A stretch of DNA of 64,000 nucleotides, from contig NZ_SMKA01000010.1 in NCBI RefSeq assembly GCF_004348455.1, positions 1 through 64,000 on the forward strand, given 5' to 3'. Within the stretch, counting starts at the first letter, position 1; every line of letters starts with the position of its first letter. Shown here one piece after another: positions 49,476-62,916 of this stretch. The notes beneath the pieces are model-generated. The model ran no database searches. It saw nothing but the letters and a program-made list of their open reading frames with translations, and was not told the origin of the DNA. A program made the translations under genes and the position numbers. This stretch comes from Kribbella albertanoniae (lineage in GTDB: Bacteria > Actinomycetota > Actinomycetes > Propionibacteriales > Kribbellaceae).

Positions 49476-50441
49476 TCACAGCTCAGGCGATGGGCCTCGC
49501 TCCATCTCAAGCGGTACATCGCCAGCCGGGCGCTCGCGAGTTCGGCGGCGCCGCGGACGCGATCGGTAATCAGCCAGGGGACGAGTGAGGAGCAGCTCGT
49601 CATGTAGGCGTTGAAGGCCGTCGTGTCTCATCCTCAACGTGGCGGGCGAGAAGGCCCGCGGTAGGTCGACGGCTTGGACTCGCCGGAAGGCCTTGGCGAG
49701 GTCAGGGAGAATCTCAATGGCCCTCTGTCGTGCAGCCTCGTTCTCCGACACGACGACAACCACGGTGTCAGCGACCGCACGGGCCCCGAGGATTCGCGCC
49801 TGGTCCGCCGATAGCAGGGCGCCACACAACGGGATGCCGGCCCATCGGCCGCCGCTCAGTCGGCTGACGTTCTCAATGGCGAACGCATCCAGCGGGTCGT
49901 CAACCAGTACCGGCGACGCCTCGCCCGCCAGAAGCTCGAGTTGCTCGGCGATACCAATGACGCTTCCTGACCGGCGATGGATTTGCGTGTCCGGCGAGGT
50001 TGTGTAGTAGACCGCACCACTGCTCCGTCGTACGCCGGTGAAGCCCACGATCTGCAGGCGGTGGTCCCTTGCCGGAAGCATCAGTTGATCGCGAAAACGG
50101 TCCACTAACCTGCCGTCCGCGCCTAGGACTCCGAGACCTGCATTCCGGATTGTCGTGAGGTCGAACCCGGTCGCCCGCAGGTGATCTACCAGCCGCGACC
50201 GCGAGTCAGGCGCATACCCGACCAGCCACCTCGATTCAGTGTCCAGCTGTGCAAGCGCGCCGCCGCGTTCGAGGTAATTGCGCGGCCAGCTTTTCTTGTC
50301 TCTGAACAGTTCCCGACGATAGAACCTGGTGGCTGCGTGACTCACCTCGAGCAACTGTCGCAGCCGAGCAGCCGTTGGCACTGCATTTGGATCGGGGATC
50401 CGCGACCCCAATCCCTTCTTCCACGCCTCGATGTGATCCAC
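49476..50441 (-). CDS. DnaG/toprim-like primase fragment of a mobile element
   Basis: The 321-aa protein carries the DnaG core N-terminal subdomain (ATRFYRRELFRDKKSWPRNY, YLERGGALAQLD, WLVGYAPDSRSRLVDHLRAT, DQLMLPARDHRLQIVGFTGV). A toprim region follows, with PVLVDDPLDAFAIENV and VVVVVSENEAA. The zinc-binding N-domain is absent. GTG 50441 is the first start, but the same frame stays open back to the PPC stop at 50538 and reads naturally. The true start may be non-standard or lost. Such proteins are typical of actinobacterial conjugative elements. Confidence 0.75.
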   Translation of the reverse strand: MDHIEAWKKGLGSRIPDPNAVPTAARLRQLLEVSHAATRFYRRELFRDKKSWPRNYLERGGALAQLDTESRWLVGYAPDSRSRLVDHLRATGFDLTTIRNAGLGVLGADGRLVDRFRDQLMLPARDHRLQIVGFTGVRRSSGAVYYTTSPDTQIHRRSGSVIGIAEQLELLAGEASPVLVDDPLDAFAIENVSRLSGGRWAGIPLCGALLSADQARILGARAVADTVVVVVSENEAARQRAIEILPDLAKAFRRVQAVDLPRAFSPATLRMRHDGLQRLHDELLLTRPLADYRSRPRRRRTRERPAGDVPLEMERGPSPEL

Positions 50442-52416: not shown

Positions 52417-52768
52417 GGTCCACTCCGGTCAGCACCGGCAACTCGTAATGATCCCGATCAGTCCGTACGGCGTCACGCCGGTCAACACCGACGTACGCCG
52501 TGGCCAGCGCGTAGCCGCCAGGCCGATCCAGGAGCTGAATCCGGACACCCGCCACGAAGGCTCGCGGAGCACCGCGGCGACGCCCGACGATGACCAACCG
52601 GCCGCCTCCGAGCCGACCGGTGTGCTCATGGATCCAGCGCTCAGCCAGGCTGCGGACGGTCGCCTTCGGCGGTCGGCTGAAGACGTTCGTCCCCGATGCA
52701 ACCACCGTCCAGCGCCCGTCGCTCTCGCGCGTCGCGATCTCGAACGCGTACATCCTTCTGCCTCGCAT
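52403..52768 (-). CDS. Small hypothetical protein of the mobile region
   Basis: The 121-aa basic protein starts MRGRRMYAFEIATRESDGRW, then ATVRSLAERWIHEHTGRLGG. ATG at 52768 has AGGAGGGG directly upstream. It heads the operon with the XRE regulator and PPC genes and overlaps the former by 14 bp. No family was recognised. Confidence 0.7.
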   Translation of the reverse strand: MRGRRMYAFEIATRESDGRWTVVASGTNVFSRPPKATVRSLAERWIHEHTGRLGGGRLVIVGRRRGAPRAFVAGVRIQLLDRPGGYALATAYVGVDRRDAVRTDRDHYELPVLTGVDRDRR

Positions 52769-52833
52769 GACCCCTCCTAGGGTTCTTGCAAGCAGGATGT
52801 ACCGGGAGCGCCGTACAGCATCACCACACACTC

Positions 52834-52882
52834 GGACATCTCCGGGATGTCCTCATTGCGCTCAAAATGTCCTGAAATGTCT
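52834..52882 (+). promoter_or_regulatory. ATGTC repeat operator upstream of HTH/PLD regulator 1
   Basis: An inverted repeat GGACATC-N5-GATGTCC (52834-52852) is followed by a direct repeat AAATGTCC TG AAATGTCT (52865-52882) with 10-bp period. TTAGGTTAG directly after could be a -10 region and leaves a leader of only a few bases before the GTG at 52896. The same boxes occur before the paralogous regulator at 59334. Confidence 0.65.
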
Positions 52883-52895
52883 TAGGTTAGACCTC

Positions 52896-53639
52896 GTGGC
52901 TAACGAACGACTGCGAGCAGCGATGGCTGAGCACGGCCTCACCCATCATGCACTGGCCGAGGAGCTCGGAGTCAACGTCAAAACCGTCGAGCGCTGGGTC
53001 GGCGAAGGCAAGCTTCCCTTCGCGCGCAATCGGCACGCCCTGGCCATCCGGCTCGGCCACGCCGAGTCGTACCTGTGGCCGGACGCACTCACCCGCGATC
53101 GGGCAGCCGCCGTTTCCGAGAGCGAGGTCGTCAAGGTCTACCCACGCCGATCCGACGTGTCCGGCGATGAGTGGCGCCAGCTCTTCGACTCGGGCACGAA
53201 TGAGCTCGGAGTGCTCGTCTACGCTGGACTCTTCCTCGCCGAGGACGCCGGCTTCCAGCGGATCATCCGGAAGAAGGCCAAGGCCGGCGCCCGGATCAGA
53301 ATCCTCCTAGGCGACCCCTCAGCACCCAACGTCACCGAACGCGGTCGAGAAGAAGGCATCGGCGACACGCTCGGAGCCAAGATCCGGAACACCATTGCCG
53401 TGTACGGCGACGTTCCCAAACTGGCCGGCGTCGAGTTCCGAATGCATCGCACCGTGCTCTACAACTCGATCTACCGCGCCGACGACCGGCTGTTCGTGAA
53501 CACCCACATCTACGGCCTGCCCGCGGCCCAGGCCCCGGTCTGGCACCTGCGAAGGATCCCCGGCGGCGAACTGGCGAACCACTACCTCGAGAGCTTCGAG
53601 CGAGTCTGGGACGAAGCAACCCCGATGACGGAGGCCTGA
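52896..53639 (+). CDS. HTH regulator with PLD-like C-terminal domain (DUF5919-like)
   Basis: The 247-aa protein starts ANERLRAAMAEHGLTHHALA, then EELGVNVKTVERWVGEGKLP, an XRE-type HTH. The C-terminal domain contains VYPRRSDVSGDEWRQLFDSG, AGARIRILLGDP and VEFRMHRTVLYNSIYRADDR, ending near HIYGLPAAQAPVWHL, a phospholipase-D-like nucleotide-sensor fold. GTG at 52896 is preceded by ATGTC operator-like repeats. The stop overlaps the NUDIX start (TGATG). The paralog is at 58609. Confidence 0.82.
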   Translation: MANERLRAAMAEHGLTHHALAEELGVNVKTVERWVGEGKLPFARNRHALAIRLGHAESYLWPDALTRDRAAAVSESEVVKVYPRRSDVSGDEWRQLFDSGTNELGVLVYAGLFLAEDAGFQRIIRKKAKAGARIRILLGDPSAPNVTERGREEGIGDTLGAKIRNTIAVYGDVPKLAGVEFRMHRTVLYNSIYRADDRLFVNTHIYGLPAAQAPVWHLRRIPGGELANHYLESFERVWDEATPMTEA

Positions 53640-55617: not shown

Positions 55618-56538
55618 ATGACCCACTCAGCGCCACCTGAACCGGAGCACCCTGACGGGGTCATCAGCAGGCCGAGCAGTGTTCTCAGGAGTAGTACCGA
55701 CACGACGGACAACGATCTGAAACCCCGCCTCGCTGACTTCGCTCCGGGATCACCCGACGCCTTCTTGGCCTTCGACTGGCGGGTGCTCGACGACCTGGCT
55801 TCTGTACCGATCGAACCGGACGAGACCGAGGCAGAGGCGGCCGCCCGTCGAGCGATCGACATCCAACTGCTGGCCTTCCTGACCGACGGCAGGCTCACCG
55901 GCGACGACCTTCAGACCTGCTACAAGAAGGTCTGCCGACGACTGTCGGCCCACGCGTATCAAGTGCTGGTCGGCTGGGCCAAGACTGGACAGATCTTCAC
56001 CAAGTGCGGAACGTCGATGACGCCGATCATGCACCCGCATCCCGGTTGGTCGAACGAAGACATTGACATGGTCGTCAAGGACACCGTGATCGAAACCGCG
56101 AGGACCTTCAAGACTGCAGGCCTGCGCGCCTGGGACCCAGACGGCGGCCGTAGTCCGCAGTCATTCTTCATCGAGCACTGCACCCAGAACTTTCCTCGGA
56201 TCTACAACCGGTGGCTCAAGGAACACATCATCAGCGCCGAGCTCCACCACCTGGGAGACGATGAGCCGGGATTCGACCAGCTTCCCGGGCAGGCACCGGA
56301 CCCTGTCGATGTGGCGGCCTGCCACGACCAGATCGACAGAGCGATCAGCGAGCTGAAGGATCCGCAGTTGCGCGAGTTCGTCGGCCTCCAGGCAGTCGGC
56401 TACGAGCCAGCTGAGGCAAGGAACCTGGCTGGGCTGACCCGTAAAGCCGAGTCGTACCGACTGGCCAAGTACCGGCGCCACCTCGAGGGTGACAGTCCAC
56501 CATCGCCCGCCTCTGCCGATTCCGACGACCGGGCTTAG
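55618..56538 (+). CDS. Divergent sigma-70-like protein of the mobile region
   Basis: In the 306-aa protein, AYQVLVGWAKTGQIFTKCGT, DMVVKDTVIETARTFKTAGL and GGRSPQSFFIEHCTQNFPRI with YNRWLKEH resemble region 2 of an unusual sigma-like family from actinomycete plasmids. The C-terminal LKDPQLREFVGLQAVGYEPA with RNLAGLTRKAESYRL resembles region 4. ATG at 55618 is chosen for GGAG 6-9 nt upstream; an ATG at 55606 is possible. It lies 10 bp before the chimeric gene at 56549, so the two are one operon. Promoter recognition is inferred. Confidence 0.65.
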   Translation: MTHSAPPEPEHPDGVISRPSSVLRSSTDTTDNDLKPRLADFAPGSPDAFLAFDWRVLDDLASVPIEPDETEAEAAARRAIDIQLLAFLTDGRLTGDDLQTCYKKVCRRLSAHAYQVLVGWAKTGQIFTKCGTSMTPIMHPHPGWSNEDIDMVVKDTVIETARTFKTAGLRAWDPDGGRSPQSFFIEHCTQNFPRIYNRWLKEHIISAELHHLGDDEPGFDQLPGQAPDPVDVAACHDQIDRAISELKDPQLREFVGLQAVGYEPAEARNLAGLTRKAESYRLAKYRRHLEGDSPPSPASADSDDRA

Positions 56539-56548
56539 GGAGAAAGAC

Positions 56549-58051
56549 ATGAACCACCGTGACGAGCAGAAGAAGACCTGCACCGTCGACCCACGGCCAG
56601 ATGCCCGGCAGTCAGGTTCCGAGTTTGATCAGCTTCTGGAAGCTTCGAGTCTCGGTGCCCCCGCGGTGCTGCGGCACGAGGCGATGACACCGGATTCGTT
56701 CTTCGTAGAGCTCGATGCCGTGCTGGACGAGGACTACGCGCGGGAGACGAAGGAACAGCCATCAGCGCAGGTTCCTGAAGGCGATGTCGACGACGCTTTG
56801 CTCCGTCTCATCGAACGCGGCGCGCAGCCGGTTGACTGGCCTTCGTCAACGGATCCGAATGGGGTGAGCTCTCGACCAACGTGGACCTACCCCAGCGGAA
56901 GCTACTCACTCGGCACGTGCCTGCTCCCAGACCATGAAACCGACTTCGCTGGCGAGCAGCTGATTCGTCTCTGGTATCTCCCCGCCGCGGAGTCGCGAGT
57001 CGTCGTCTCGTTCGTCGAGTACGGGCGGCCGAGCCAAGTACGAGCACTCCTAGCTGCGCTGCAGGTCACAAACAATGATCCCGTCCCGCGCTCTCCTGAG
57101 TCCCCCGTGGTGACCGCGAATTCCTTTGAAGCGACCTGGAATCTGAACCTCTTCTCGTATCTCCGAGAAGACGTCGCTCGCTCGATGGTGTCGTTCGGAC
57201 TTGCCGACAAAGTTCGCTTCGAACCCATCATCTGGGCCTGCTTGGCCGCGACCACAACCGTGCACATCAGCGATGAAGTTGAACTTCACCTTCACCTTCA
57301 CTCTTCGCGAGTGAGCGATGACCCCGCTCAAACGAAATGGTGGAACTTCTTCCGGTGCGCTCCGCGCACACCCCCGGAGCTAGTCGCCGGACCCACGCGC
57401 TTGGCTCTCGAAAGAGGCCGGCACCAAAAACGACCTCGGTGGCGAATGAGTCCTCCCGGAGCAATCCGGGCACCAGAAGCGCAGATACTTAGGGACACCG
57501 CGCTGCAACTTCCCGCTGCGTCTGGACTGGACCGCGTGTTCCGGACACTCGTTGTGCCCACGTTAGGCAGAGAAGCCGTCAAACCGCTCGCTGCAGTTGT
57601 CAAGGCCGATACCTCGGGCGTACGCAATCCGCGGCCGGAGCCAAGTCCGGACGGGATGAGACGGGCCGAGCTCGTCGATCGCGCTCAGGCAGGTGACGTC
57701 GGTGCCTTCGGTGAGCTCTACGACGAGTACTCGCTCACCGTCTATCGCTACATATACGCTCGGGTGTCGTCATCGGCACTCGCCGAGGACCTGACCAGCG
57801 AGACGTTCGTCCGGGCGCTGCGTGCGCTGGACTCCTTCCGCTGGCAGGGCCGGGATTTCGGCGCCTGGCTGGTGACGATCGCCCGGAACCTGATCACCGA
57901 CCACTACAAGTCCGGCCGGGTCCGGCTCGAGGTGGTCACGGACGAGATCGAGACGCACGACCGGCAGACCGAGGGGCCGGAGGTCGACGTACTGGCCGCC
58001 GCCACCGCCGAGGTACTGCGGGACGCCGTCGCCAGCTTGCCCGAGAGATAA
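56549..58051 (+). CDS. Chimeric protein: unknown N-terminus fused to half an ECF sigma factor
   Basis: The N-terminal 360 or so residues of the 500-aa protein are not recognised. From about residue 370 the sequence becomes a BldN/ShbA-like ECF sigma factor: ELVDRAQAGDVGAFGELYDE, VYRYIYARVSSSALAEDLTS, FRWQGRDFGAWLVTIARNLI and ADHYK-like TDHYKSGRVRLEV. It stops at RDAVASLPER, just where region 4 should begin, so the DNA-binding part for -35 is absent. ATG at 56549 has GGGAGAAAG upstream. It is either a domain fusion or the product of a recombination inside a sigma gene. Confidence 0.75.
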   Translation: MNHRDEQKKTCTVDPRPDARQSGSEFDQLLEASSLGAPAVLRHEAMTPDSFFVELDAVLDEDYARETKEQPSAQVPEGDVDDALLRLIERGAQPVDWPSSTDPNGVSSRPTWTYPSGSYSLGTCLLPDHETDFAGEQLIRLWYLPAAESRVVVSFVEYGRPSQVRALLAALQVTNNDPVPRSPESPVVTANSFEATWNLNLFSYLREDVARSMVSFGLADKVRFEPIIWACLAATTTVHISDEVELHLHLHSSRVSDDPAQTKWWNFFRCAPRTPPELVAGPTRLALERGRHQKRPRWRMSPPGAIRAPEAQILRDTALQLPAASGLDRVFRTLVVPTLGREAVKPLAAVVKADTSGVRNPRPEPSPDGMRRAELVDRAQAGDVGAFGELYDEYSLTVYRYIYARVSSSALAEDLTSETFVRALRALDSFRWQGRDFGAWLVTIARNLITDHYKSGRVRLEVVTDEIETHDRQTEGPEVDVLAAATAEVLRDAVASLPER

Positions 58052-58163
58052 CGCGACTGCCGTGACACCTGGTCGGCTTCGTAGCGGCTAACCGAACAGC
58101 ATCCACCGTAGGTGACGCCGGCTATCGGCGGGCCTATGCTCCTGGTCGGGACGAGGGAATCAG

Positions 58164-58646
58164 ATGTCCCAGGCAAACAGTCTCCGCCGGCGCGCTACAG
58201 AGCGGCGACGAGTGAAGGACTTGGAGATGACGCTAGCGGGCTACGTCACAGCCCAGGAGCAGGATCGTCGTGCTTGGTCGAAACCGGCGGTCCTATCGAG
58301 TGATCACGCTTCTGGTTGCAGCAATCGCCGTGTCAGGTACCTGATGGGCGACCACTCGGAGCGCGGAAGAGGACCGAGAAGGAGAGCCGGGAGCGAACGG
58401 CACAGATTTACGCCAACTGTTTGTCGAGCGGTCGGGGGGTACCTTGACGCCCGGATTGAAACGGTCTCTTCCAGGGAGCAGGTAGAGGCACTCGCCGGCA
58501 AGGTCGCTGCCAGCATCTTGGATTGGGAGAAGGCATGGCAGGCGGAGGTCATAGCTCTGGATCTGTATGAGAAGCAGGTTGATCTTGTTTTTGCCTACGG
58601 CATTGATCTCAGCCCAAAGGCGCTGGAGCGGCCATCGACCAGATAG
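58164..58646 (+). CDS. Hypothetical protein, possibly frameshifted
   Basis: The 160-codon frame has GAGGGA 6 nt before ATG 58164. The N-terminal 40 and C-terminal 70 residues look natural (RIETVSSREQVEALAGKVAA, ILDWEKAWQAEVIALDLYEK), but the middle is Arg-rich. In another frame that middle gives a membrane-helix-like RRSYRVITLLVAAIAVSG. A membrane protein broken by two indels is therefore possible. It overlaps the convergent regulator gene by 38 bp. Confidence 0.4.
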   Translation: MSQANSLRRRATERRRVKDLEMTLAGYVTAQEQDRRAWSKPAVLSSDHASGCSNRRVRYLMGDHSERGRGPRRRAGSERHRFTPTVCRAVGGYLDARIETVSSREQVEALAGKVAASILDWEKAWQAEVIALDLYEKQVDLVFAYGIDLSPKALERPSTR

Positions 58647-59334
58647 TTTCCAGGCTTGTCTCGTAGGCATCGAAGATTTCGCTGCTCTCGGTGCGGCGAT
58701 AGTGGAAGAGCGGCGACTCCGCAGCTGGTACGCCGTACGCGTGCTGGTTGACGATGAGGTCGTCGTCCGCGCGGTAGAGCGAGCTGTAGACCACGTCACG
58801 ATGCAGCCGAAGCTGGAACCGATCGAACCGTAGCAACGGCTTCACGAGGCGTAGCGTTCCACGGAGCTGGTCTGCGACGGCTTCATCGGCTTCCGCGGAT
58901 TCATTGTTCGGAAGCGCAAGCGCGAACCTCATGCGAACACCCTCGGCACACTTGCGCTCGAACAGCTGGATGATCTGGGAGTCGTCCAACAGGAACGACG
59001 CGCTGAAGGTCAGCAGATCTACCCGAGACCTCGCTCCATCGAAGAGCGCAAGCCAGTCCTGCGACTTCAACAGGTCTCGCCGCGGATAGACAGCTGCGAG
59101 CTCAGACGGCCGATCCCCCATCCGAACCGACGAGTTGAGCTCCGGCCACACGACGTTGACGTCAACGCCGAGCAACCGTTCCAGCGACGCGCGCCGCCCG
59201 GGATGCGGTACCTGACCGCGCATCCAGTTGCGGACCGTCTTGGGATCCACGGACAGTTCGACTGACAGGTCGAGCTCGGTGAGGCCAGCGTCGTACATCG
59301 CGCGCCGGAGCACCTCGTTCACTCGGATCGCCAT
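58609..59334 (-). CDS. HTH regulator with PLD-like C-terminal domain, second copy
   Basis: The 241-aa protein starts MAIRVNEVLRRAMYDAGLTE, with HTH VDPKTVRNWMRGQVPHPGRR. The C-terminal domain AVYPRRDLLKSQDWLALFDG, LRLHRDVVYSSLYRADDDLI and QHAYGVPAAESPLFHY matches the protein at 52896 along its length. ATG at 59334 is preceded by two pairs of ATGTC boxes. A nucleotide or DNA-damage signal could be sensed, but that is inference. Confidence 0.82.
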   Translation of the reverse strand: MAIRVNEVLRRAMYDAGLTELDLSVELSVDPKTVRNWMRGQVPHPGRRASLERLLGVDVNVVWPELNSSVRMGDRPSELAAVYPRRDLLKSQDWLALFDGARSRVDLLTFSASFLLDDSQIIQLFERKCAEGVRMRFALALPNNESAEADEAVADQLRGTLRLVKPLLRFDRFQLRLHRDVVYSSLYRADDDLIVNQHAYGVPAAESPLFHYRRTESSEIFDAYETSLETIWSMAAPAPLG

Positions 59335-60458: not shown

Positions 60459-60671
60459 TTACTCCCAGCGGTCGTCATGATCGTGATATTCGAGACTCGC
60501 GTACCACTCGGTCACCTCGCGAGCGCGGTATCTGATGTGCCGCCCGACTCGACGGCCTGGTGGCCCGTAGCCGTGGGTCCGCCATCGGTAGAGCGTCCGC
60601 TTGGGCACCTGGAGGTACTCCGCCACCTGATCGATGTCCCACAGCGGGTCAGTATCAGGCTGTGTCGTCAT
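60459..60671 (-). CDS. AlpA/excisionase-like HTH protein
   Basis: The 70-aa protein is a MerR-type winged helix of the excisionase family: DPLWDIDQVAEYLQVPKRTL, then YRWRTHGYGPPGRRVGRHIR and VTEWYASLEYHD. It is expected to bend DNA and direct excision by the element's integrase, which is not in this window. ATG at 60671 has GGGAGG 6 nt upstream. It overlaps the upstream gene by 17 bp. Confidence 0.85.
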   Translation of the reverse strand: MTTQPDTDPLWDIDQVAEYLQVPKRTLYRWRTHGYGPPGRRVGRHIRYRAREVTEWYASLEYHDHDDRWE

Positions 60672-61008
60672 GCTGAACCTCCCAGCCTCGAGCCCTCGGT
60701 TGGTCAACCGCCTGCCGCTCGCGCTCTGCCCTGACCATCCGCCGGACCTCGCGCTGCGAGATGCCGAGAATCTCCGCGGCTGCTTCGGCCGATCCGCACA
60801 CCTTGGCGAGCAAAGTCGTCTCCGTCTCTGAAGTCAACTCGGCGGCAGCGATTCGCTCGTCGTGGCGTTCCATCGCCTGCGCCTTCGCCTCGACTGCTCG
60901 CTTCACGTTGCTGTGGGCCAAGACGGTGCGTGCGGTCGCGGCTTCGATCCTCGCTTGACGCTCGCGCGCACGTCGCAGCGCCGCCGCCCGATCGCTGGCG
61001 CCCATCAT
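60655..61008 (-). CDS. Small coiled-coil protein with HTH-like end
   Basis: The 117-aa protein is a long Ala/Arg/Glu-rich helix (RAAALRRARERQARIEAATA, KAQAMERHDERIAAAEL) followed by VCGSAEAAAEILGISQREVR, which resembles a small HTH. ATG at 61008 overlaps the preceding stop by one base. It is probably a regulatory or partition-type accessory protein, and no family was assigned. Confidence 0.65.
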   Translation of the reverse strand: MMGASDRAAALRRARERQARIEAATARTVLAHSNVKRAVEAKAQAMERHDERIAAAELTSETETTLLAKVCGSAEAAAEILGISQREVRRMVRAERERQAVDQPRARGWEVQHDDTA

Positions 61009-61580
61009 CACCACCCAGGCCCAGGCTGATCGAACGGCGGGGCGGCTTCGCGCGTCGGATCCGACGAGACCGCCGTACTGTGCTGGCGCATGTAGGCGCG
61101 TGTCGAGGCGACGACCTGCTTGGCCGCATCGGTCACGCGCGCGCTCGCCTCGTCCGCGTACTTCTCCGGCGCGTCGGGTCTCAAGTACCACGCCCACTGG
61201 GCGATAAAGCCGAGCGACTCGTCGTTGCTGATCCCGTGATGCACCAGTACGACGTACGCGAAGATCTCGGCCTCGACCTCGCGCAAGCCGTGAGAATCCT
61301 CGAAAACTGAGAACGGACCGCGGAGGCTGCCAGCCGCATGCAGGTGCACGTGTCCGACCTCGTGCGCCAGCCGGGTCATCGCAGCGACCCCACGCAGATG
61401 GGCGGCGAGGACGACCTCGTTTGCCTGATAGTCGGTGAACGCATCCAGCGAACCACCCGTCGGCTTGATCGCTACACGGAATCCTCTGACCTCCGCCTCC
61501 CGAACGAGTGCCGTCCAGAGGCCAGCATCCGCCCCGGGCGGTGCACTCACGGGGTTGCGAAACTTCCTGTCATTGCTCAT
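61008..61580 (-). CDS. HExxH metallopeptidase-like protein
   Basis: The 190-aa protein contains MTRLAHEVGHVHLHAAG, the zinc HEVGH motif of ImmA/IrrE- and ArdC-type peptidases, followed by FEDSHGLREVEAEIFAYVVL with a downstream Glu. Such proteins cleave regulators or counter host defence in conjugative elements. ATG at 61580 has GAGGAGG upstream. It is 19 bp downstream of the large gene at 61600. Confidence 0.82.
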   Translation of the reverse strand: MSNDRKFRNPVSAPPGADAGLWTALVREAEVRGFRVAIKPTGGSLDAFTDYQANEVVLAAHLRGVAAMTRLAHEVGHVHLHAAGSLRGPFSVFEDSHGLREVEAEIFAYVVLVHHGISNDESLGFIAQWAWYLRPDAPEKYADEASARVTDAAKQVVASTRAYMRQHSTAVSSDPTREAAPPFDQPGPGW

Positions 61581-61599
61581 AGCAACCTCCTCGGGTCGG

Positions 61600-62916
61600 T
61601 TATCGATCCAGATCGACAGGCTGTTGGCCCGGCTCGGCAGCGTCGGGAATTTCGAGGTACGGCGCCGGCTCGCGTGATGATTCGCGCCGAGCTGGCCTCG
61701 CCTCGTGTGACGTGCCGGCCAACCGGCGCGCGAAGCGCGATGCAACGGCCAAGTGGTCGACGCTCCAGGCCAAGGACATGGTCAGCTCGGCGAAGAAGGC
61801 CGGCTGGTTGGTGCGCAGCCACCGAGCGTTCAGCAACCGCGTCTCCGTTGGCGGACGGAGGTACCTGAGATCGGTCCTGATCAGTTCCTCGCGGGGAACG
61901 AACAGGCGTCCTTGCGCGACCAGCGCCGAGACAGCCCTTTGCTGCCGTCGACCGACTTGCTCCGCCGACCAGACGAGTTCGTCCACAGCGTCCAGGAGGC
62001 GGTAGGCCGCCGTTCGCCCTGGTACCAGCGCGCCAGGTTCCAGCAGCCGACCATCAGGCCGTACGACGCGGTCCAGCGCCGCCCGAAGTTCCAGGAACGC
62101 TGCTTCGCTGGGTGTTCCGGTGAATCCGTTCAGGTCGGACAGCCGTCGTCGCCAAGACTGCGCGACTCGCAGGGCACCGGCCTCTGCCGCTCGAACCGCC
62201 TGCTTGAGGACGTTCAGGTCGAGCACTTGTCGCGCGTCCAGTTCGGTAGACGACGACGCGGCAACCATGTCAGCCAGGTGCCACACATATCCACAGATCG
62301 TTCGCACCTGTGCTGTAGCGGCCCGCAAGTCGCGGGTCAGCAGTGCATCCAGCGCGACCGTGTCTTCAGCTCGCTCCCAACGCGCCGCGTGTCGAGAAAT
62401 GATCGAGACGTCGTCGTCGGCTGCGGCCGGTGCACCAACGGACAGCCGTCCGAGATCTCCTAACCCGCCGCGGCGCACATCCGACGTCGCCAGCTTCTCG
62501 AGTGCAGCCAGCATTCTCACCAGGCGGCGGCGCTCGGCAGTTCTAGATCGTGTGTTGCTCATCGCCGTGTCGGCACCGATCAGCGCAATCGCTGCAACCT
62601 CTGCTCTCGCCGACGTCAGATTCGTCGGGTCATCCAGTACGCGGGCGTTCACAGCGTCTTGGGTCGCTAGCAGATCGCCGCCGGCGCCAATAGCCTGAGC
62701 CAGCCGCCCCAGCGGACGATCGGACTGTCCGACGGATTCGCCGTACAGCCTCGCTGCGCGGAGATCGTGCCGCAGCCACCGCAGATGATTGGCAGTCGCG
62801 GCGACCACAGCCTTCCAGTCATCGACAGCCTCAGAACGGTTCTTGTACTTGGTTTGCGCCGCTTCCACGGCTATCCGCCGGGCGACGCGCAGAAGGTCCT
62901 CATACGTCGCGCGCAT
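61600..62916 (-). CDS. Large helical protein of the conjugative region
   Basis: The 438-aa, Ala/Arg-rich, almost wholly helical protein starts MRATYEDLLRVARRIAVEAA and later has DLNVLKQAVRAAEAGALRVA. No signal peptide, membrane segment or catalytic motif is visible. It lies next to a relaxase gene, where such cytoplasmic helical proteins are common. ATG at 62916 overlaps the next upstream gene by 17 bp. The function is unknown. Confidence 0.7.
   Translation of the reverse strand: MRATYEDLLRVARRIAVEAAQTKYKNRSEAVDDWKAVVAATANHLRWLRHDLRAARLYGESVGQSDRPLGRLAQAIGAGGDLLATQDAVNARVLDDPTNLTSARAEVAAIALIGADTAMSNTRSRTAERRRLVRMLAALEKLATSDVRRGGLGDLGRLSVGAPAAADDDVSIISRHAARWERAEDTVALDALLTRDLRAATAQVRTICGYVWHLADMVAASSSTELDARQVLDLNVLKQAVRAAEAGALRVAQSWRRRLSDLNGFTGTPSEAAFLELRAALDRVVRPDGRLLEPGALVPGRTAAYRLLDAVDELVWSAEQVGRRQQRAVSALVAQGRLFVPREELIRTDLRYLRPPTETRLLNARWLRTNQPAFFAELTMSLAWSVDHLAVASRFARRLAGTSHEARPARRESSREPAPYLEIPDAAEPGQQPVDLDR

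Follow-up and report, generated by a model that had tools for sequence, protein, structure and literature searches.

A recently captured piece of host bldN in a gene of an apparently undescribed, sigma-like operon family of actinomycete mobile elements

Introduction

How does a gene in a mobile region come to end in the front half of a sigma factor, and what could such a hybrid do? The question is raised by Kribbella albertanoniae (RefSeq assembly GCF_004348455.1), in which positions 1 to 64,000 of contig NZ_SMKA01000010.1, the stretch of DNA analyzed here and referred to as the window, carry two neighboring genes on the plus strand: a gene at 55618-56538 (306 aa; gene 1) and a hybrid open reading frame at 56549-58051 (500 aa; gene 2). 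Below we trace where the parts of gene 2 came from, place both genes in an operon family and weigh what the present hybrid may be.

Results

The open reading frame of gene 2 is real: it begins with an ATG at 56549, preceded by GGGAGAAAG, ends with a TAA at 58049-58051, and joins three segments that we call the SSLG tag, the middle part and the captured bldN piece. The tag (56618-56758, plus strand; residues ~24-70, 'EFDQLLEASSLGAPAVLRHEAMTP') has three predicted helices. The middle part (56780-57256, plus strand; residues ~78-236) is common to a gene pair in another genome, G009, whose gene 2 aligns to it at 35% identity (E-value 2.4e-8; alignments A2 and A7 were also made) and has lost the tag signature; it is apparently common to a Nonomuraea gene 2 as well. 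The last 138 residues are those of a BldN-family ECF sigma factor with region 2 complete and region 4 missing. Pfam Sigma70_r2 (PF04542) matches residues 390-456 (E-value 8e-19), no Pfam match to Sigma-70 region 4 was found in gene 2, and the NCBIfam model of the BldN family (TIGR02952; profile positions 1-123) matches residues 375-497 with an E-value of 2.8e-35 and a score of 121.7 bits, below its cut-off of 206.45. A preliminary description of this DNA had said that the protein contains sigma region 2 and ends just inside region 4, which these matches bear out; its label, BldN/ShbA-like, can be narrowed to BldN, as the NCBIfam ShbA match is far weaker (E-value 4.6e-14).

The same description had suggested looking for an intact sigma homologue elsewhere in the genome, and one is present. 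An intact bldN homologue, with hem-type genes alongside and an rsbN-like gene with a DUF5667 domain following it, lies on contig C238 and shares 97% protein identity with the tail of gene 2. At the DNA level, 57634-58066 matches this bldN over 433 bp at 98%, which by sequence comparison is far beyond chance. Within the match, 57634-58044 (plus strand) is a copy with 3 differences in 411 bp, two of them synonymous and one G to S; it holds the complete sigma region 2 (Sigma70_r2 at ~57716-57916) and the linker, and its exact stretches in common with the C238 gene measure 201 and 179 bp. The right end of the copy is frayed (58045-58066, plus strand), with 4 substitutions and 1 inserted base, five changes clustered in 58045-58062 that create the stop codon. 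Homology to bldN continues about 15 bp beyond that stop, to 58066; the lack of region 4 therefore reflects the limit of the copied piece, and not the stop codon alone. Among solved structures, the chain closest to the bldN-derived part is 6dxo_A, the BldN of the RsbN-BldN complex.

Each of the 38 genomes of the genus has one bldN, which in other species is 85-95% identical to the copy; the next species stands at about 95%, against 3/411 differences for the bldN on C238. A second bldN fragment at such identity occurs, among these 38 genomes, in the window genome only. Given so few differences and the distance to other species, the bldN piece derives, and recently, from the same species or a sister strain; by these comparisons the source of the gene 2 tail is the host's own bldN or that of a sister strain. 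The same bldN fusion was sought in other genomes of the genus, in plasmids and in viral contigs, and none was found, leaving the BldN hybrid a single case.

Queried with the 3' part of bldN together with its downstream genes, the genome yielded no more than the native locus and a further match of 27 bp. The missing half of the sigma gene, which the preliminary description had named as evidence for simple disruption if found at the far end of the element, was thus not found. With bldN intact on C238 and the missing half nowhere else, the piece in gene 2 is a copied fragment and not the product of an element inserting into bldN: the recombination with a host sigma gene that had been suggested did occur, but as copying of a fragment rather than as disruption.

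The 27-bp match lies inside gene 2 as well. At 57298-57324 (plus strand), ~310 bp upstream of the bldN copy, 26/27 bp are identical, with the reading frame kept, to a stretch early in the rsbN-like anti-sigma gene downstream of bldN; the piece also matches rsbN throughout the genus. Each of the two pieces stands in its own original reading frame and the fusion is in frame, while their order is swapped relative to the native operon. The 309 bp between them (57325-57633, plus strand) are open in the frame of gene 2 only, the chance of which from composition alone is about 11-22%; a search for their source in the own genome and in the genus found none. That one gene holds two pieces of a single operon, their order swapped, points to capture by end joining, as do the sharp ends and the clustering of errors at the right junction. 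In Streptomyces ambofaciens, repaired breaks were found to contain inserted host fragments measuring between 30 bp and 18.8 kb, and the scars of nonhomologous end joining in Streptomyces show microhomology or added bases (PMC5869714). The window resembles that system in that host fragments, from 30 bp upward, were stuffed into break sites there; it differs in that the breaks were induced with I-SceI, whereas the event in the window is read from sequence alone.

As a separate observation, hardly any variation within the genus, even at synonymous sites, is seen where the rsbN-like gene begins and in the ~50 nt preceding it (L009 9380-9510, L052-L065). This pattern suggests an embedded DNA or RNA element, and the 27-bp piece in the window derives from the end of the near-invariant stretch.

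Genes 1 and 2 are, as profile searches place them, a member of a widespread actinomycete operon carried on plasmids and mobile elements. A scan of contigs queried only with gene 1 of the window found no matches; the weakly homologous pair in G009 was the lead to wider profile searches, and the family emerged with profiles only. Relatives of gene 1 were found by profile search in 14/394 genomes sampled across the class, in 33/393 Streptomyces genomes at an E-value of 1e-20, and in 51 plasmid records, including those of M. abscessus, M. marinum, Prescottella, Rhodococcus and Corynebacterium. Judged by Pfam, NCBIfam, PHROGs, PADLOC and open-access papers, this SSLG operon family is apparently undescribed, and no relevant paper on the SSLG motif turned up in a search of the open-access literature. 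Gene 1 and gene 2 typically overlap by 4 nt in the relatives; in the window they are separated by 10 bp.

Gene 2 of the relatives starts with a conserved tag of ~45 aa, 'DDFDaLLeaSSLGaPxxrxlRxrTP'. An HMM of the tag built without the window finds the window's gene 2 at an E-value of 6.5e-8 among 8,941 ORFs, in which every tag-positive ORF adjoins a gene 1 (92/92); in this count overlapping loci are entered separately, and the ORFs come mostly from loci retrieved through gene 1, so that the survey covered these loci rather than whole genomes. The tag is present in 92 of the 112 loci bearing gene 1, some of which overlap. The predicted structure of the tag has helices at 19-32, 38-46 and 49-69 at low overall confidence (mean pLDDT 74, pTM 0.38), and a comparison of the tag with the known anti-sigma domains in Pfam gave no match.

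Several copies of the operon deserve mention for their setting. On pMM23 of M. marinum, a mycobacterial plasmid with mercury genes, a sigma-like/SSLG pair (L163, 3791-5049) is annotated as a 'Fis family transcriptional regulator' and a hypothetical protein. Streptomyces copies L125 (genome G711) and L120 (genome G232) lie near contig or chromosome ends, and in G711 the largest contig has one copy towards each end, some 7 kb inward, an arrangement like that of terminal inverted repeats.

We accept gene 1, from profile comparison and modeling, as sigma-70-like with a predicted sigma role, its product comprising putative sigma-2-like and sigma-4-like helical domains. The window copy alone matches neither Pfam nor NCBIfam. 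A profile of 36 relatives (A6) matches ECF sigma factors in the PDB, the best being CnrH (4cxf; residues 113-185, E-value 5e-10), the relative L050 passes Pfam Sigma70_r4_2, and homologues in plasmid records are named 'sigma factor-like helix-turn-helix DNA-binding protein' or 'sigma-70 family'. In the AlphaFold model of gene 1 (pLDDT 79.6), the top Foldseek and VIA matches are sigma factors, covering residues 60-292 at low Z-scores of 6-8.7 (best Foldseek E-value 0.018), and residues 65-201 superpose on region 2 of sigmaE with a Z-score of 8.7 and an rmsd of 2.0 over 93 residues, where a Z-score of 13 is advised for helical models. We attribute these modest scores to the small helical domains. 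The assignment of region 4 is firm and that of region 2, which leans on the model, is probable. The profile match and the placement of the model on sigma-2 and sigma-4 thus agree with the earlier remark that the gene upstream of the hybrid is sigma-like. No match to gene 1 was found in a phage collection or in PHROGs, and PADLOC models of anti-phage defence matched neither gene 1 nor gene 2 of the window. A two-subunit sigma factor of the SigO/RsoA type, with region 2 supplied by gene 2, was also considered and is unlikely, as gene 1 seemingly has a region 2 of its own and most gene 2 tails are not sigma-related.

Behind the tag, the tails of gene 2 differ widely from locus to locus, and comprise SsgA (PF04686), XRE-DUF5753, Crp/cNMP, DtxR, MarR, HAD, GNAT, LuxR, HTH_17, acyl carrier protein (ACP) and TPR domains and, in the Streptomyces relative L135, a whole ECF sigma factor; relatives free of a tail are genes of 54-57 aa. 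Among gene 2 tails in Streptomyces, developmental proteins of the SsgA type are found in many. On plasmid pRHL3 of Rhodococcus jostii RHA1, an SSLG tag is fused to an acyl carrier protein domain beside a sigma-like gene (L164, 4671-5264). In 80 pairs of gene 2 whose gene 1 proteins are at least 40% identical, the tails show no similarity; L135, with its ECF sigma tail, and L136, with a Crp tail, have gene 1 proteins that are 72% identical. Unlike tails beside similar gene 1 proteins indicate that tail exchange is a property of the family, of which the BldN tail in the window is one instance. For L135 and L146, the own genome was tested for a recent paralogue of the tail and none was seen; fresh capture is therefore seen in the window only, and the host is not established as the general source of tails.

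The surrounding mobile region looks to be decaying. It carries on the minus strand a primase-like gene near its left part (49476-50441; PHROG DNA primase, E-value 2.3e-17), an excisionase-like HTH_17 gene (60459-60707) and a gene for an ImmA/IrrE-type peptidase (61008-61745; Peptidase_M78, E-value 6.9e-6). Just past the window end lies a TrwC/MobF-type relaxase-helicase gene without the N-terminal catalytic part (L066 234-3110, contig 64234-67110), which starts at TrwC profile position 190. The region of genes 1 and 2 is also flanked by two genes of the HTH plus DUF5919-like type in opposite orientation (52590-53639, plus strand; 58609-59334, minus strand), whose proteins are 34% identical; no DNA repeat was found between these two genes.

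Discussion

The account that we favor reads gene 1 as an ECF-like sigma factor and gene 2 as an exchangeable domain behind a short helical SSLG tag, on a mobile operon. The tag would bind the gene 1 sigma factor much as a short anti-sigma segment does, an analogy drawn from its position, the gene overlap and its size, and the tail would serve as an input or output domain of that sigma factor. In the window, a double-strand break in gene 2 may have been healed by end joining, with copied bldN and rsbN pieces stuffed in that replaced the original rear end of the gene. If the hybrid is made, its BldN region 2 could contact core RNA polymerase or the host RsbN, and it could not read the -35 element. 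Taken jointly, family membership, capture and the sigma/partner relation seem to us somewhat probable. The frayed right end, the 309 bp for which no source was found, the tag signature lost in G009 and the decaying element speak against this account, and all are compatible with an inert scar. The likelihoods given below concern the function of the present hybrid and overlap with that of the joint account.

With the element decaying, its relaxase lacking the N-terminal part, an inert scar is about as likely as a working hybrid. The reading by which chance capture brought pieces of bldN and rsbN into a decaying element, leaving a pseudogene-like hybrid of no selected function, is a substantial one, if less than evenly likely: the hybrid is a single case, with a frayed end that brings a stop and a stretch for which no source was found, the relaxase is truncated, and an open frame there is only mildly unlikely by chance. 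However, the hybrid is fused in frame, each captured piece is still read in its original frame, and the gene 2 family routinely changes tails while remaining functional-looking; two of the three early changes are synonymous, which are too few to test.

More tentatively, SSLG operons may be a mobile platform that captures regulator domains of the host, often developmental ones, behind a sigma-bound tag, with the bldN capture caught soon after the event. We regard this broader reading as possible, though on the unlikely side; were it true, the element would wire its own sigma factor to host signals.

The decoy or takeover role that had first been proposed, in which BldN region 2 of the hybrid binds core polymerase or sequesters RsbN and so shifts development in favor of the element, is an unlikely one. 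Region 2 is complete, the closest solved chain comes from the RsbN-BldN complex, and in that structure region 2 contacts RsbN (PMC7406223; the text of the paper interchanges both names); the SsgA-type tails in Streptomyces are developmental, and the whole ECF sigma factor of L135 keeps a sigma-related role open. Yet the anti-sigma factor contacts region 4 too in that structure, and the hybrid has no region 4, while tails that include enzymes, an ACP or nothing at all follow no common decoy logic.

That the fusion is a chimera of assembly or sequencing, with reads of bldN joined to gene 2, is improbable. The genome is a draft of 593 contigs, and an assembler could be misled by the exact stretches of 201 and 179 bp, but the copy differs from bldN both internally and at its right end and has an extra piece upstream, whereas a chimera should match bldN exactly. 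Simple disruption, an element having inserted into bldN and split it, would explain why the fragment stops sharply inside the gene and is effectively ruled out by the intact bldN on C238 and the lack of any other 3' half in the genome.

The favored sigma/partner account can be set beside known systems. Operons of ECF sigma and anti-sigma factors (CnrH-CnrY, class II; BldN-RsbN, class III) resemble the SSLG operon in having a sigma-like gene followed by a usually overlapping partner gene, whose product has a short start, in the SSLG operon predicted to be helical, and a variable end domain; CnrY, the anti-sigma factor of CnrH, consists of two helices (PMC7406223). Unlike those partners, the tag has no sequence relation to Pfam anti-sigma domains, and the SSLG tails are soluble regulators, enzymes and carriers more than membrane sensors, with sigma binding putative. 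Compared with the BldN-family ECF sigma factors (TIGR02952), gene 2 carries in its last 138 residues a near-identical copy of the host BldN up to region 4, but with region 4 absent and its score under the family cut-off it is not a BldN sigma factor. The SsgA-like proteins (SALPs), a common gene 2 tail in Streptomyces that appears in plasmid annotation as 'SsgA family sporulation/cell division regulator', differ in that the domain there lies behind an SSLG tag and further intervening sequence; they are absent from the window.

If the tag is a sigma-binding segment, these operons would form a large, apparently undescribed family of sigma factors and partners on actinobacterial plasmids, among them those of Streptomyces, Mycobacteroides, Prescottella, Rhodococcus and Corynebacterium, in which the working domain of the partner is exchanged unusually freely. 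The captured piece of bldN, a developmental sigma-factor gene of the host, is near-identical to its source and its capture hence recent, which makes the mode of tail acquisition directly testable. Even on the inert reading, the window documents, within a single gene, capture of DNA from two places of one operon; if the sigma/partner account is true, the SSLG operon would be a natural kit for linking one sigma factor to many inputs.
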